Positions 6,724-59,605 of a stretch of DNA of 64,000 nt are shown here, piece after piece; positions within the stretch are counted from its first letter, which is position 1, and every line of letters starts with the position of its first letter. The DNA comes from Opitutus sp. GAS368 (lineage in GTDB: Bacteria > Verrucomicrobiota > Verrucomicrobiia > Opitutales > Opitutaceae), in assembly GCF_900104925.1 (NCBI RefSeq), contig NZ_LT629735.1:2574291-2638290 (forward strand), given 5' to 3'. The notes beneath the pieces are model-generated. The model ran no database searches. It was not told the DNA's origin and was given only the letters and a program-made list of their open reading frames with translations. The translations under genes and the position numbers were made by a program.

Positions 6724-6829
6724 AGATGACAGAGGACCGAGGACGGAGGCCAGACGGAAAAACAAGTAGGTGGGCGTCGATTTCCACATCGACGCCAGTC
6801 GCCGGGATGGAAAACCGGCGACCACCTAT
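6724..6829. repeat. CAGAGGA tract and two-hairpin REP element (RAYT flank)
   Basis: Positions 6724-6758 carry spaced ACAGAGG-like words. Positions 6766-6829 form a REP unit with terminal GTAGGTGG (6766-6773) and CCACCTAT (6822-6829). It encloses hairpins GGCGTCGAT/ATCGACGCC (6773-6796) and GTCGCCGG/CCGGCGAC (6798-6822). The second loop reads GATGGAAAA. The unit sits directly downstream of the RAYT gene. Confidence 0.85.
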
Positions 6830-7278
6830 TCCTGTGTTGGCGAATTGATCGCCCACGGCCAGTCAGCTGCGTTCTTGCAGAGGCCTTTCACGACCGGGTT
6901 TTGCCGGATGTATTCCGCTTTGAACTGCAACTCGTGGGCGCTGCGGATGCGATGATCAAAGAAGTTAACCTGCCACTGAATGCCGAGCTGGCGGGTGTGC
7001 CACGCTTTCCATCGGCCGACGATGATCCGCATATCGGAGGCCCGCGGAAAGCTGATGAGCGCATGCAAGTGATCGGGCATCAGCAGAAACAGGTGGCTGA
7101 ACCATGAGGCTCTCAGGTGATAGAACTTCACGGATTCCAGCAATGCGGGGGCAATGGTTGGTTCCACGAGTGACTGACAACTCTTCAATGCTATCCGCAC
7201 CCGAATATGGAATACCGCCCCGGATTGCACCCAGGCGGACATCGCGTGGTAGAGCCGTCGCGTCGAATCAGTGGCCAT
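6826..7278 (-). CDS. REP-associated tyrosine transposase (RAYT, Y1/HUH family)
   Basis: RAYTs are single-strand-specific Y1 nucleases related to IS200/IS605 TnpA that cut and spread REP hairpins. The 150-residue product from ATG 7276-7278 (MATDSTRRLYH) has the HUH-type motif PDHLHAL (about residues 66-72). It also has the catalytic-tyrosine segment AEYIRQNPVVKGL (Tyr about 122) and the RAYT hallmark ADWPWA near the C-terminus. It is slightly short for the family, but both catalytic motifs are intact. GTCGCCGG hairpins with ATGGAA loops flank it on both sides (6798-6822, 7311-7334), the layout of a REP-RAYT unit. An upstream in-frame ATG at 7300-7302 is possible. Confidence 0.85.
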   Translation of the reverse strand: MATDSTRRLYHAMSAWVQSGAVFHIRVRIALKSCQSLVEPTIAPALLESVKFYHLRASWFSHLFLLMPDHLHALISFPRASDMRIIVGRWKAWHTRQLGIQWQVNFFDHRIRSAHELQFKAEYIRQNPVVKGLCKNAADWPWAINSPTQE

Positions 7279-7310
7279 CGGTAGCGGTAAACGCCGGCCC
7301 ACGCGTTTTT

Positions 7311-9191: not shown

Positions 9192-10760
9192 TCACTCGAC
9201 GGACAACCCGCCATAAAACCGCGTCCAGAGCCGGTCGGCCTGCCAGCCGTGCACGCGCGGCGCCACGAGGAAGTTCTGGGCGTTGAAATACAACGGGATG
9301 ACCGGCATCTCGTTGAGGAGGATCCGCTCCGCCCCTTGGTAGGCGGAAGGATCAGTCAGGCTCCGGGCGGTCGCCACCTGATGGTCGAACTCCGCGTTGC
9401 GCCAGTGCGGGTAGTTGAGCGGGTGGCCGCTGGTCAGCTGGGTGAACAGGTCCGAGGCGCCGTCGTAGTCCGGAATGGCCGTCATGAAGGCGATCGCGAA
9501 GTCGCCGCTCGCGAGCGATACGAGATGAGTGCGCGCCTCGCGCGAGGCGAGGGCGACCTCGATGCCCAGCTCGCGCCGCCACATTTGCTGGATGGCCTCG
9601 AGCTGCGCGGGGTTCACGGGCCAGGACGACAGCTCGAGCCGGGGGAATCCCTCGCCTCCGGGAAAGCCGGCCGCGGCCAGCAGGCTCCGCGCTTTGGCGG
9701 CGTCCTCCTTGATCTGCGCTGACGGGGCGTAGCCGCCGAGGCCGGCGGGCACGAAATTGAACGCGGGCTGGCCGCTGAGCAGCACCTTCTCCACGAGCGC
9801 CGTGCGGTCGAGGGCGAGCGCCAGCGCCTGGCGCACGCGGACGTCATTGAGCGGCGGGCGCGTCGTGTTCAGCACGAGATAACGCGTCTCGAACAGCGGC
9901 ACGCTGTGCAGGACGGGCGGCTCGGCGGTGCGGTAGCCCGCGAGCTTGGTGACCGGCACCGCCATCGTCACATCGAGCTGCCCGGCGCGGAAGGCGCGTT
10001 CCTCGCTGTCGCCGTTGTCGAACGCGAGGAACTCGATGCCCGCGAGCTGCGTGAGGTGGGAAGTCAGGTGGTGCGGGTTTTTCCGCACGACGATGCGCTG
10101 GTGGGGCCGCCATTCCGCGAGGAGGAACCGGCCGTTGCCGACATAATGCTCCGGGCGGGCCCAATCCGCGCCGAACTTTTCCACCGTGGCCGGGTGCACC
10201 GGGATCCACGGTCCACTTGCGGCAATCGCCAGGAAATCGGCCGTGGGCCGGGCCAGGGTGATGACCAGCGTGCGCGGGTCGGGGGCGGTCACCCCGACCG
10301 CGGCGAAATCGGTGACGGTGCCGCGCAGGAATGCCGCGGCATTCCTGATGGGAAAAAAGAGCGAGGCCTTGGGGACCGCCGTGGCCGGGGTAAGGGCGCG
10401 CTTGATGGACCACACAAAGTCCTGCGCGGTGACCACGTCGCCGTTCGACCAGAAGGAGCCGCCGCTGAGATGGAAAGTCCACGTCAGGCCGTCGGCCGAG
10501 GCTTCCCAATGCGAGGCCACAGCCGGCAGCGGCGTGCCGCCCACGGGACTGGGCGTGACGAGCCCCTCGCTCAGGGCGCGGATGACAAAGAACTCGTCGG
10601 GCAGCGTGGCGAGCTGCGGGTCGAGCGTGGCCGGCTCGTTGCGCTGGCTGACGCGCAGCACGCCGGTCGCGGGCGCGATCGCCTGCTTGGAACAACCGGA
10701 TTCAATGGCCGCAAAAAGGCACAAAAAAGCGCAAAAAAAACAATCCCCGAGAACTGTCAT
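9192..10760 (-). CDS. oppA: oligopeptide-binding lipoprotein, OppA/SBP family 5
   Basis: This periplasmic solute-binding protein has 522 residues, the normal size for OppA. It carries the N-terminal lobe signature [16 protein letters not shown], the GLTWTFHL and [18 protein letters not shown] motifs, and [18 protein letters not shown] in the central part. I chose ATG 10758-10760, giving a short hydrophobic segment [13 protein letters not shown] and a cysteine in ESGCSK that could be lipidated. The lipobox is poor. The entire signal region is encoded by dispersed repeat DNA: the hydrophobic stretch by a GGCACAAAAAAGCGC arm, and the start codon by the TGTCAT of a core repeat. It is paired with a second OppA-like gene just upstream (10871-12493). 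It presumably delivers peptides to the OppB/OppC pair. Confidence 0.88.
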
Positions 10761-10862
10761 TCTGAGCGCAGCGAAGTCTAGCCCAGCAGGGCTGGTTTGA
10801 CATCCAGAACGTTGAGCGCCGGCGGGCATGATGCTGGATCCTTCGCTGCGCTCAGGATGACA
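10705..10862. repeat. nested repeat upstream of oppA: GCACAAAAAAG arm and TGTCATTCTGAG core
   Basis: Positions 10705-10741 carry three spaced copies of a GCAAAAA/GCACAAA word. Positions 10755-10776 (TGTCATTCTGAGCGCAGCGA onward) and 10834-10862 are inverted core arms. The left part overlaps the oppA signal-peptide codons. Confidence 0.8.
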
Positions 10863-10870
10863 AACCAGGA

Positions 10871-12493
10871 TTACTTGCCGGCCTCCAGCCAGACATAGCG
10901 GAAATCGGAGTGGTCCGTCGGGGTGGGCTGCCAGCCCTTGACGGCCGGGGAGAGGAAATAGACGTGGGTGTTGAAGTAGATCGGAATGATGGGCGCGGCG
11001 TCGAGGACGAGGGCCTCGGCCTCCGCGAGGACCGCGGCGCGGGCCACCGGGTCGGCCATGGTGTTGGCGCGGTTGGAAAGGGCGTCATACGTCGGATCGG
11101 ACCAGCCGGTGTGGTTGTTGCCGGAGTCGCTGCGCCACAGGTCCAGGAAGGTCGTGGCGTCGAGGTAGTCGGCGGTCCAGCTGCCGAGGAGGACCTGATA
11201 GTCGCCATTGCGCCGGCTGGCGAAGACGCTCTTGTATTCCTGGTTCACGAGGCGCACGTCGATCCCGAGGTCGCGGTGCCACATCTGCTGGATGGCCTCG
11301 GCGACCAGGCGGAGAATCTCGGAGTTGTTGTAGAGAATCTCAATGGGCGGCAGGCCTACGCCGTTGGCGTGACCGGCCTCCGCCAGGAGCTGGCGGGCGG
11401 CGGCCGGATCATAGCGCTGGCCGGCGGGCGGCGTGTAACCCTTGAGCAGGGGGGGCACAAAGGTCGGCGCGGGCAGACGGCCACCCGGGAGGATTTTGTT
11501 CGCGATGGTGTCGCGGTCGACGGCCAGCGCGAGCGCGCGCCGCACGCGCGCATCGCCGAGGGGCGCCTTGCGGACGTTGAGGCGGAAGAAATAGGTCTCC
11601 ATGTTAAGGTCGATCCGGAGCGCGGGATTGTGGTCGCGCTGGGCGGGCTGGATCTTGGAGAGGGGGAGCGAATAGGTGGCGTGGAGCTGGCCGGAGCGGA
11701 AGGCGCGTTCCTCGGCGTCGATGCTGTCGGTGGGGTAGAAATGGATCGCGTTGAGGCGCACGCGGTCGCGGTCGTAGTAGGTCGGGGATTTCTCGACAAC
11801 CACGCGCTGCTGCGTGGTCCATTCCTTCAGCACGAAGGCGCCGCTCGACACGAGCTTGCCGGGCCGCGTCCAGGGGGTGCCCCGCCGGTAGGGATCGCCG
11901 ACGGCGGCGATGGCGCGGACGTTGACCGGACGCCAGCAGGAGTTGAGGAGGGCCTGGAGGAAATAGGGGGCCGGGTGCGTGAGCGTGACGACGAGCGTGT
12001 GGGGATCGCGCGCGACGGCGGCGACCGTCGAGAAGTCCGTCGTCTTTCCCTGGTGGAAAGCCTCGGCGCCGCGGATGAGGTAGAGGAAGTAGGCGTAGTC
12101 GGCCGCCAGGGTCGGGGTGAGGATGCGCTTCCACGATTCCACGCAGTCCTGGGCCGTGAGGGGCGAACCGTCGCTCCACTTCGCATCCACGCGGAGGTGG
12201 AAGGTGTAGGTCATCCCGTCGGGGGAGATATCCCAGCTCGCGGCCAGCGCGGGCACCGGGGCGAGCGTGCCGGGTTCAAAGCTCACCAGCGGGTCGAACA
12301 GCGCCTGGACCAGCTTGGCCTCGCCCAGGCCGGTGACCGTATGCGGGTCGAGATCAGAGGGCTCCGAGCCGACGCTGATATGGAAGATGCCCTCGCGGTT
12401 GCCGCGCTCGACGAGCGTCTCGCGCTTCGCGCAGCCGGTGATCAGAAGACAGAGGACAGAGAACAGAAGACAGATAAAAGCGGGACGACGCAT
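10871..12493 (-). CDS. oppA: second oligopeptide-binding lipoprotein, OppA/SBP family 5
   Basis: A 540-residue solute-binding lipoprotein with a full lipoprotein signal: MRRPAFICLLFSVLCLLITG followed by the lipidated Cys of LITGC. Family motifs are visible: GSEPSDLDPHTVTG, GMTYTFHLRVDAKWSDG, TAQDCVESWKRIL and VRRALALAVDRDTIANKI. It is adjacent to and co-oriented with the other OppA gene, so the transporter probably has two binding proteins of different peptide preference. The hydrophobic core FICLLFSVLCLLI is encoded by a CAGAAGACAGAGGACAGA tract (12440-12480), a dispersed repeat word also found in several intergenic gaps. Confidence 0.9.
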   Translation of the reverse strand: MRRPAFICLLFSVLCLLITGCAKRETLVERGNREGIFHISVGSEPSDLDPHTVTGLGEAKLVQALFDPLVSFEPGTLAPVPALAASWDISPDGMTYTFHLRVDAKWSDGSPLTAQDCVESWKRILTPTLAADYAYFLYLIRGAEAFHQGKTTDFSTVAAVARDPHTLVVTLTHPAPYFLQALLNSCWRPVNVRAIAAVGDPYRRGTPWTRPGKLVSSGAFVLKEWTTQQRVVVEKSPTYYDRDRVRLNAIHFYPTDSIDAEERAFRSGQLHATYSLPLSKIQPAQRDHNPALRIDLNMETYFFRLNVRKAPLGDARVRRALALAVDRDTIANKILPGGRLPAPTFVPPLLKGYTPPAGQRYDPAAARQLLAEAGHANGVGLPPIEILYNNSEILRLVAEAIQQMWHRDLGIDVRLVNQEYKSVFASRRNGDYQVLLGSWTADYLDATTFLDLWRSDSGNNHTGWSDPTYDALSNRANTMADPVARAAVLAEAEALVLDAAPIIPIYFNTHVYFLSPAVKGWQPTPTDHSDFRYVWLEAGK

Positions 12494-22598: not shown

Positions 22599-22853
22599 GT
22601 GCGACCCTCAAAGGGACACACCATACCCAAAGCGGGACACGCGTCTCCCAAAGAAAGTCACACGACACTTGAAGAAGGTCACGCCATACCCAAAGCGGGA
22701 GACGCGCGACCCAAAGAGGGAGACACGATACCCGAGCCGGGTATTGCGATACCCAAGGGAGGTAACGCACGACCCGAAGAAGGAGACGCCACACCCAAAG
22801 AGGGATAGGCGATACCCGAAGAAGGTAACGCGATACCTGAAGGAGGAGAGAGG
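22599..22853. repeat. twelve tandem copies of a degenerate 21-bp unit
   Basis: From about 22599 the sequence repeats with a strict 21-bp period for twelve units, approximately RCGCGATACCCRAAGRRGGWG, with no insertion or deletion although single units differ at up to a third of their positions. The frame is open in at least three of the six registers, giving heptapeptide repeats such as GDARPKE or KVTRHLK. No flanking family, start or ribosome-binding site makes any of them a convincing protein. The period is two helical turns. It is the dominant content of the 22425-22938 gap. Confidence 0.85.
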
Positions 22854-32445: not shown

Positions 32446-33684
32446 TCACGGCACCAGCTCGAAGACCGGCACCTCCACGTCGGTCTCTTTCGTGCCGGTG
32501 AGGAAGGTATAGGTGATCTTCGGGGTGGTCTTCACGAGCGCGGCGTAACGGTCGTAGCCCCATTTGTCCACCGGCTCGCCGTTGATGCGGATGCAGAGGT
32601 CGCCGGCCTGCACTGGCAGCGCCGCGGTCGGCGTGTCGGGGATGACGGTGAGCACGCGCCAGTAGACCGGGCCGCGGGTGAAAGACAGGCCGGTGGAGCG
32701 GCGCGGCTCCATCGTCACGGGGCCGTCGGCGTCGTGGATGAAGGTCACCTGGTTGCGGCGCTGGTCGAAGGTCAGGACGAAATGCCGGAGGAACTCGCCG
32801 CCGATGGAGGAAAGCTGCTCGGTGAGGTCCACGATCGGTTTATCGATGGTGTGGGCGCCGATCAGCACGCTTTGGTTGAGCCGGCCGGTGAGCTGGCGGC
32901 GGTCGCCCGACAGCGACGAGATGATGGTGCCGATCCGCGGGCCGTTGGCGAAGCGCGGGTGCAGGCCGACGGGATTGAGGCTCAGGCTGCCGTCGCTGCC
33001 GGAATCGACGAGCACGACGAACGACTCGTTGCCCATCTGGATCGGGATGAGCGGCGTGCCCTGCTGGTTGTTGAAGGCGATGGTCGAGACCCGCGGGGTC
33101 TGCTTCGGCGGCGGGGCGAACGCCGCGGGGTAGGGCGCGACGACGAGCCGCGCCCCCGGATAGTCGAGCGTGAGGAGCGTGTTCCGGAAAACGGGGAAGC
33201 CGATGATGCCGTCGATCGGCAGGCCGAGGTGGCCCGACAGCTCGGTAAAGTCGAAGATGAGCGCCGGCACGCGCTCGAAGAGCGACTCACCCAGCCAGAG
33301 CCTGCGCAGGATGGTGGCCTCGAGCTCGAGCTCGCCGCCGCTGGCGGAGCGCACGCGGACCCGCTGGGGCGTCGCATCCTTCCTGGGCTTCACGGCGATC
33401 CGCCTGGCCAGCGCCGGCGAGACATAGCTGACCGTCGAACCCGTATCCACGAGGAAGCGGTAGACCGAGCCGTCCTCCTGCTTGCTCTCGATCACGAAGA
33501 AATTCGAGATGATGCGGGCCGGCAGGACGGTGGCCTTGACCTCCACCACGGTCCGGCCGGGCGCGCGGCGGGACACGGTGGAGCAACCGGTCACGAGCAG
33601 AAGGCAGAGGACGGAGGACAGAAGACAGAGGACAGCCGGGCGGCCCCGCCAATTTAAGACCTGAAATCTGAGACCTGTGATCAT
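32446..33684 (-). CDS. lipoprotein with two retropepsin-like aspartyl protease domains and PDZ
   Basis: A 412-residue protein with a lipoprotein signal (AVLCLLSSVLCLLLVTGC; Cys about 34). It has two aspartyl-protease-like repeats with active-site motifs FLVDTGSTVSY (about residue 80) and VVLVDSGSDGSL (about 225), and a C-terminal PDZ-like domain (VQAGDLCIRINGEPVDKW). Probably anchored to the outer membrane or periplasmic face. The signal peptide is encoded by the CAGAGGACGGAGGACAGAAG repeat tract (33594-33636), and the first residues by a TCTGAGACCTG repeat. ATG 33682-33684 overlaps the stop of the upstream MFS gene by 4 bp. Confidence 0.83.
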   Translation of the reverse strand: MITGLRFQVLNWRGRPAVLCLLSSVLCLLLVTGCSTVSRRAPGRTVVEVKATVLPARIISNFFVIESKQEDGSVYRFLVDTGSTVSYVSPALARRIAVKPRKDATPQRVRVRSASGGELELEATILRRLWLGESLFERVPALIFDFTELSGHLGLPIDGIIGFPVFRNTLLTLDYPGARLVVAPYPAAFAPPPKQTPRVSTIAFNNQQGTPLIPIQMGNESFVVLVDSGSDGSLSLNPVGLHPRFANGPRIGTIISSLSGDRRQLTGRLNQSVLIGAHTIDKPIVDLTEQLSSIGGEFLRHFVLTFDQRRNQVTFIHDADGPVTMEPRRSTGLSFTRGPVYWRVLTVIPDTPTAALPVQAGDLCIRINGEPVDKWGYDRYAALVKTTPKITYTFLTGTKETDVEVPVFELVP

Positions 33685-59435: not shown

Positions 59436-59605
59436 TGGCCACAAAAAGGCACAAGAATGCACCAAAACAGAAAACCAGTCAGCGGTTGTCATCCTGAGCG
59501 GGGCGAAGGATCCATCGGCGCGCAGACATTCAATTGGGTTCTTCGCTGCGCGCAGAATGACAGACATGGTATGTTTTCGTGCCGTTTCGTGCCGTTTCGT
59601 GGCCA
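59436..59605. repeat. nested palindrome: GGCACAA/CGTGCC arms around a TGTCATCCTGAG core
   Basis: Outer arms 59436-59468 (TGGCCACAAAAAGGCACAAG onward) and 59573-59605 (three CGTTTCGTGCC-like words) are inverted. Inner arms are 59487-59514 and 59535-59562. Same two-layer design as at 5603 and 28609, with a third outer word. Confidence 0.85.

Follow-up and report, generated by a model that had tools for sequence, protein, structure and literature searches.

Short intergenic repeats in the start and signal-peptide regions of lipoprotein genes of Opitutus sp. GAS368 and its relatives

The gene A leader and its repeats

The window (the whole stretch of DNA analysed here, 64,000 nt) is part of the single-contig 4.15 Mb genome of Opitutus sp. 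GAS368. It carries two tandem genes for SBP_bac_5 proteins, both on the minus strand and referred to here as gene A and gene B, whose PF00496 matches of 258.7 and 315.6 bits exceed the gathering score of 32.4. Close homologues were found in named records, with Opitutus, Lacunisphaera and Opitutaceae among the names. Genes were called with our own codon-usage caller, which missed gene A in one stretch (L294) of the comparison genome G004. The conserved mature part of gene A begins at the Cys codon 10692-10694, and the ORF is open up to the ATG at 10827-10829; alignments of the orthologues start at the lipobox Gly-Cys, and the leaders 5' of the lipobox diverge. Repeats of two families, F1 and F2, were located in this leader, and a nested copy of both lies elsewhere in the window:

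9192..10829, minus strand: gene A, SBP_bac_5 (OppA-type) lipoprotein (Pfam PF00496, E 1.2e-76)
10704..10742, minus strand: h-region of gene A, 13 residues, encoded by the T-rich F2 arm (F2 match 20/21)
10707..10741, plus strand: F2 repeat arm, A-rich strand (GGCCGCAAAAAGGCACAAAAAAGCGCAAAAAAAAC), of a 45-copy family
10755..10776, plus strand: F1 arm (TGTCATTCTGAGCGCAGCGAAG), with the minus-strand reading ..FAALRMT.., holding the ATG 10758-10760
10827..10829, minus strand: better-supported start ATG, in the loop that the two F1 arms enclose (Shine-Dalgarno-like site CGAAGGAU, -6.0 kcal/mol, 8 nt upstream)
10836..10862, minus strand: second F1 arm (minus-strand sequence TGTCATCCTGAGCGCAGCGAAGGATCC), holding the Shine-Dalgarno-like site at 10838-10845
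59437..59604, strand not assigned: nested F2 - F1 - F1' - F2' copy between genes, the right F2 arm degenerate (4-5 mismatches)

In the initial annotation the hydrophobic segment of gene A was regarded as the antisense translation of a repeat arm, and this is what was found: its coding sequence occupies 10704-10742 of the minus strand, inside the long ORF 9192-10829, and corresponds to GGCCGCAAAAAGGCACAAAAAAGCGCAAAAA (from 10707) read in reverse complement, a sequence with one mismatch to the F2 word GGCCACAAAAAGGCACAAAAA. The arm had been said to recur near 59436, where a copy indeed begins at 59437, and the CAT at 10758-10760, which had been placed in a repeat core, falls within the F1 core TGTCATTCTGAG at 10755-10766. 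When the leader was recoded synonymously 1000 times, no recoding was as good as its 20/21 match (best 18), and the repeat sequence described for gene A is right and well beyond chance. In the genome, the F2 word occurs at 45 places with at most three mismatches (reversed control, 1) and the F1 core in 57 exact copies (control, 0), while a third family, F3, gave 96 matches at up to three mismatches against 22 control matches. F2 arms form inverted pairs, or palindromes, of which 21 were counted in GAS368 loci and 27 in G004 loci at five mismatches or fewer per arm; such pairs may correspond to the terminal inverted repeats of a MITE.

The same CAT had also been proposed as the start codon of gene A, and here the outcome was different, since the ATG at 10760 has no Shine-Dalgarno-like pairing whereas the ATG at 10829 has one. 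The site in the F1 arm lies 8 nt before the gene A start in GAS368, 6 nt in the orthologue L121 and 8 nt in the orthologue L126. Of the F1 arms with an exact AAGGATC in GAS368 loci, 5/15 have an ATG 2-10 nt downstream, compared with 8% of shuffles. Pairing at gene A, gene B and lptE was computed with an anti-Shine-Dalgarno sequence taken from general knowledge. Read from the ATG at 10829, the n-region holds two Arg and two Asp and its net charge is 0; read from that at 10760, it holds no basic residue and one Asp; the n-regions of L121 and L126 are net positive when read from the long start. On these sequence features the ATG at 10829 is preferred over that at 10760 as the probable start of gene A, and both lie inside repeat DNA. 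The earlier view of a signal assembled from repeats thus holds for the leader, in which two repeat modules stand beside the conserved lipobox Cys, and is not supported for the start codon at 10760.

In gene A the hydrophobic segment is followed by SGC, with the invariant Cys of bacterial lipoproteins. The lipobox consensus is [LVI][ASTVI][GAS]C, from which the ESGC of GAS368 departs with Glu at -3. Asn in L121 and Ser in L126 at the same position also depart from it, so cleavage of the gene A product is uncertain.

Two further features of the window were recorded. A degenerate 21-nt periodic repeat (CGATACCCAAAG..) with seven register copies lies at 22600-22851, and an F3 copy at 6728 adjoins a minus-strand gene at 6829-7302 for a RAYT-like protein (NF047646, 71.8 bits, below the threshold of 80; Pfam gave no match at 0.001), which is a tenth and weaker one besides nine Y1-transposase matches in the genome.

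Leaders of orthologues and their exchange between relatives

Twenty-eight gene A orthologues were taken from the matches listed, and an ATG overlapping the last codons of gene B was sought with a loose pattern of our own. It was found in 22 of the 28, the pattern being unmatched in six. In 18 of the 22 this ATG shares the frame of the lipobox, with no stop codon between the two; one of these is L047, whose ATG, 327 nt upstream, is improbable as a start. In the other four the frame is blocked: these are L127 and three that combine an F1 pair with an F2 arm, namely GAS368, L121 and L126. In these three the frame terminates at the TGA of an F1 arm, which in GAS368 is the arm at 10836..10862. With the overlapping start cut off in this way, the gene A leader must start inside repeat DNA if a signal peptide has been kept.

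Among the 25 leaders compared, GAS368 included, no repeat-free orthologue has the identical signal peptide, in keeping with the initial annotation. These 25 comprise only orthologues for which the alignment starts at query residue 1 or 2, and the lipobox Cys codon occurs in all 25 of a set picked because its alignments begin there. By eye, leaders like that of GAS368 were seen in L121 (closely) and L126 (loosely) only, both of which carry F1 and an F2 arm; others are free of F1-F3 (e.g. L043, L044, L130, L133) or contain F3 (e.g. L047, L124, L125). A leader of the GGGCCCTAT type (L120, L123, L131, L134) was considered as a fourth repeat, F4, and rejected: with the one pattern tried, 2/21 genomes match, G017 once (the leader in question) and G003 with three matches at a single place. 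The sequence TCCGCCGTAGCCTTGTGCGTAGGCGGA, found in the leaders of L124, L125 and L128 and tried as F5, was set aside as evidence with two copies or fewer per genome across 21 genomes. As a separate observation, this low-copy hairpin (at most two mismatches) occurs in the gene A leaders of G010, G018 and G019 and in the lptE leader of G012 (L313), thus in the leaders of two unrelated lipoproteins.

The blocked overlapping start could mean that gene A of GAS368 has lost its signal peptide, the old start having been destroyed by the repeats and the open frame being accidental, with a protein that is poorly made or cytoplasmic. The Glu at lipobox -3 and the F1 TGA that ends the overlapping frame would agree with this, as would an F1+F2 composite that is open also before L004, a gene that does not look secreted. 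We consider such a loss unlikely. The 501-codon mature frame is intact, with a dN/dS of 0.34 relative to L121 (purifying selection), two relatives whose proteins are about 71% and 64% identical keep the arrangement with its Shine-Dalgarno-like site, and a 12-residue stretch of the GAS368 leader is only one residue off the FFCALLCLFAAI of L121. It is likely instead that gene A encodes a functional oligopeptide-binding lipoprotein and that intergenic repeat DNA makes up both its translation start and its signal peptide. The Shine-Dalgarno site would come from an F1 arm, the ATG and the n-region from the loop that separates the two F1 arms, and the hydrophobic core, immediately in front of the old lipobox Cys, from the T-rich F2 arm; translation would then begin at 10829, and the product would presumably be exported by Sec and lipidated.

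Gene B is the clearest leader swap:

10871..12493, minus strand: gene B, upstream SBP_bac_5 lipoprotein (PF00496, E 5.9e-94), with the signal peptide MRRPAFICLLFSVLCLLITGC from F3
12443..12473, minus strand: F3 tandem heptamer (CTGTCYT)n, h-region of gene B

The gene B leader of GAS368 has an F3 score of 27/28, equalled by 0/1000 recodings, and its lipobox ITGC fits the consensus. In L039 (contig JANYAM010000208.1) the mature gene B protein is 94.8% identical to that of GAS368, while the signal peptide MHEKQTNGLPVFGVFFCAILCLFVAINPGC is an F2 palindrome where GAS368 has F3; the DNA on both sides of the leader is about 88% identical, and the leader in between is not. A third arrangement is found in L040, where an F1 pair is nested inside an F2 palindrome, and both L039 and L040 also carry the second, A-rich F2 arm. 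The left F2 arm of L039 provides AGAGGC (spacing 6) and an ATG, and that of L258, in another genus of the family, likewise gives a Shine-Dalgarno-like site and an ATG to a gene A homologue. No Shine-Dalgarno-like pairing was found before gene B of GAS368 or of L040. The swap at gene B, the identity of the repeats, the differing leaders of orthologues and the cut-off overlapping start are all visible in the DNA itself.

In a tree of the mature part of gene A (29 rows), GAS368 is sister to L122 (100/98), and L121 and L126 form a pair (93/92). GAS368 carries F1+F2, and its sister L122 is without F1. Because GAS368 groups with L122 and not with L121 and L126, recombination, two gains or losses are needed. 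Between GAS368 and L039, which belongs to the same genome as L121, the DNA is 88% identical over a stretch that runs from gene B to ~230 nt inside mature gene A, and recombination of the 5' part would be the simplest account of the history of gene A, two gains being also possible. A rival account, in which leaders move by gene conversion or recombination among lipoprotein paralogues and strains and no fresh repeat is captured each time, seems to us possible but rather doubtful. The 88% stretch speaks for it, together with the similar leaders of genes A and B in G004 (FFCALLCLFAAINSGC and FFCAILCLFVAINPGC) and a leader in common between the serine hydrolase L279 and the esterase L299. However, orthologue leaders at the same position come from different families, F1+F2 or F3 in gene A and likewise F2 (with or without F1) or F3 in gene B, and gene conversion accounts for the spread of such leaders, not for their origin from repeats. 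That origin would involve capture by insertion or recombination, of repeats that are possibly mobile.

Repeat matches, codon choice and other genes

Since signal peptides are naturally T/C-rich, their genes may come to resemble such repeats by convergence. For the recoding test each chosen leader was recoded synonymously 1000 times with the codon usage of GAS368, which was also applied to the relatives; the 19 F3 and 11 F2 leaders were picked by eye and are not a complete set. P was 0.002 or less in 18/19 F3 leaders, the exception being the 1821705 leader (0.019), and in 8/11 F2 leaders. L122, L127 and L128, taken by eye for F2 leaders, were rejected at P 0.032, 0.17 and 0.106. The F3 leaders score 23-28 of 28 and the passing F2 leaders 17-20 of 21, with background bests of 20 of 28 and 15 of 21, a conservative comparison because the background stretches, at 90 nt, are longer than those of the leaders. 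The background consisted of 66 N-terminal hydrophobic segments from a random 300-kb sample (11 window rows of 77 left out), and repeat-like signals were found in 0/66. As the leaders beat their recodings and the background segments score below them, the effect is taken as real in these genes and rare overall.

Some further results would suit convergence. The F3 pattern has an appreciable control count (22 against 96), L122, L127 and L128 fail the recoding test, 15/21 lptE leaders miss P 0.002 for F3, and a family-wide F3-lipobox pattern, with 6 sites in 5/200 genomes (4/6 in lipoprotein frames) against 4 control sites, is little above control and was discarded as evidence. Against it stand the recoding results (two or fewer of 1000 recodings matching in the 18 F3 and eight F2 leaders), the lower scores of the 66 random segments, the controls for F1 and F2 (0 and 1), and the A-rich F2 arm that L039 and L040 carry as well. 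Convergence is therefore very unlikely, and we keep to a repeat origin of these leaders. The F2-lipobox pattern gave 16 sites in 10/200 genomes (control 0), only 3/16 of them lipoprotein frames, all SBP_bac_5-like (L250, L257, L258).

F3 leaders were recognised in several other genes of GAS368, one of them in the window:

32449..33684, minus strand: aspartyl-protease-like lipoprotein with F3 signal peptide (MITGLRFQVLNWRGRPAVLCLLSSVLCLLLVTGC), F3 score 28/28

This gene matches PF13650 (E 1.4e-14, on 32449-33621), and its stop codon follows at 32446. Further F3 leaders belong to lptE (L158, PF04390), an ABC_trans_aux lipoprotein (L162) and a DUF4140/DUF4139 protein (L167), and those of L164, L169, L170 and L191 have lower or less certain scores; nine F3 leaders, gene B included, were tested among 55 clusters. 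An F2 h-region was recognised in 1/44 GAS368 clusters (gene A), and in four among 51 rows of G004, namely genes A and B, a PF00144 serine hydrolase and a SASA esterase. The latter two (L279 and L299, contig C177) are unrelated secreted enzymes whose leaders, ~1.3 kb apart, are near-identical, F2-derived and contain a CAYRRLR loop.

The gene lptE is present in 21/21 genomes of the genus. Its F3 score over 75 nt is at least 23 in 10/21 leaders and 17 or less in the others, and the recoding test for F3 (60 nt) gave P 0.002 or less in 6/21, 0.003-0.022 in four and at least 0.84 in 11. The F1 right arm occurs in 6/21 lptE leaders (control inside lptE, 0/21), its ATG being in frame with the lipobox in 6/6, and the left arm in 8/21. 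Since the genomes with these six F1-bearing leaders are related, the six do not count as separate events. Shine-Dalgarno pairing ahead of their F1 ATGs is none or weak (-1.5), and such support is not general, being absent or weak at lptE and at gene B of GAS368 and L040.

The placement of the repeats may also reflect control of transcripts or translation, as hairpins or 5'-leader elements, with coding use as a side effect. CT-sense F3 arrays lie within 60 nt of the start of the coding core in 27 genes and GA-sense arrays in 3 (55 GAS368 F3 clusters), and in 14 cases an A-rich F2 arm, but in 0 a T-rich one, is found 30 nt or less from the 3' end of a gene (44 GAS368 F2 clusters), as if the palindrome began right after stop codons. 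Because the genes behind CT-sense F3 include some that look cytosolic by eye, F3 may have a role outside coding too. F2 arms, for their part, often read open before cytosolic-looking genes (by eye, e.g. L004/L026), so that an open F2 frame alone proves nothing. Control elements would nevertheless leave unexplained the leaders in frame with a lipobox Cys, and the F3 bias comes partly from the signal peptides themselves and from chance matches; we regard coding use as a mere side effect as rather unlikely.

Separately, a secreted-peptidase-like protein (by eye) with the hydrophobic segment PKWIGL... was noted at L032 1519 in GAS368 and L271 1353 in G004; there is no in-frame ATG between F2 and this segment, and the nearest start candidate is a TTG inside F2.

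Repeats as export signals and comparison with known systems

The composition of the repeats offers a concrete reason why noncoding DNA of this kind could make good signal peptides, through pyrimidine-rich strands and A-rich/T-rich palindromes. A 7-nt unit does not divide into whole codons, and (CTGTCTT)n therefore gives LSSVFCL in all frames, with KTEDRRQ on the opposite strand. The three frames of the F2 T arm read FLCLFVA, FCAFLW and FVPFCG, and those of the A arm GHKKAQK, ATKRHK and PQKGTK. Mean hydropathy of the T-arm frames is 1.30 in GAS368 and 1.15 in G004 (random 24-mers, about -0.9), and stops occur in 13/126 and 19/162 of these frames, no fewer than in random 24-mers. It would follow that T-rich and CT-rich strands code for hydrophobic residues in all three frames and that the A-rich arm of an F2 palindrome, being complementary, reads as basic residues. 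With a hydrophobic T arm and a basic A arm, a palindrome can read basic-then-hydrophobic from either side, so repeats beside secreted genes could easily be captured as replacement signal peptides. A frame with start, basic and hydrophobic parts in at least one orientation is present in 10/21 F2 palindromes of GAS368 and 10/27 of G004, the rates in shuffled sequences and in random pieces of the genome being 4% and 7-9%.

From these facts a more general proposal may be made, to which we give somewhat less than an even chance. The F2 palindrome, with F1, would be a ready-made, orientation-independent export cassette and, together with the frame-independent F3, would drive continual replacement of signal peptides in Opitutaceae, that of lptE included. 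The hydrophobic core could lie in one arm, while a Shine-Dalgarno-like site, a start codon and basic residues could come from the other, and the replacement would affect lipoproteins as well as secreted enzymes. Two results make it slightly less probable: F2 arms are no poorer in stops than random 24-mers, and Shine-Dalgarno pairing is absent or weak at lptE and at gene B of GAS368.

Short repeats that are normally intergenic thus appear to have become the export tag of several secreted lipoproteins in GAS368 and some of its relatives, and the finding of different repeats at the same spot in related species suggests a simple way of export-signal replacement. Signal peptides diverge fast and their origins are seldom traceable; here the donor repeat, the replaced leader and the unchanged neighbours are all still visible at the DNA level. 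For annotators, it means that true start sites of such genes may fall inside 'intergenic' repeats.

Among the open-access literature matches listed, no precedent closer than the Yersinia RU-2/YPAL element was found. This element is described as part of one predicted signal peptide, that of YPO1552, and the signal sequences of similar proteins from other genera are not related to RU-2/YPAL (Delihas 2007, PMC2759123; review, PMC2229807). That case concerns one element and one putative exported protein, whereas here three repeat families and several conserved lipoprotein genes including lptE are concerned, and the replacement is visible between congeners. Rickettsia palindromic elements (RPE), as outlined in part of the same literature, are in-frame insertions in conserved protein genes, and the insert in gmk is neutral or slightly harmful (PMC2229807); unlike the RPE described there, the repeats of the present study would supply the start site and the export signal.

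REP/BIME elements with RAYT transposases resemble F1 and F2 in being short intergenic inverted repeats, and the genome contains nine Y1-transposase matches. However, F2 or F3 was found at 0/9 of these loci (~1.5 kb scanned on each side) and F1 as one single F1-like core with two mismatches, so the flanking arrangement of REP/RAYT systems is absent there, and mobilisation of the repeats by RAYT finds no support from the nine Y1_Tnp loci. Heptameric simple repeats of contingency loci share with F3 the tandem heptamer; in F3, one unit gained or lost would shift the frame.
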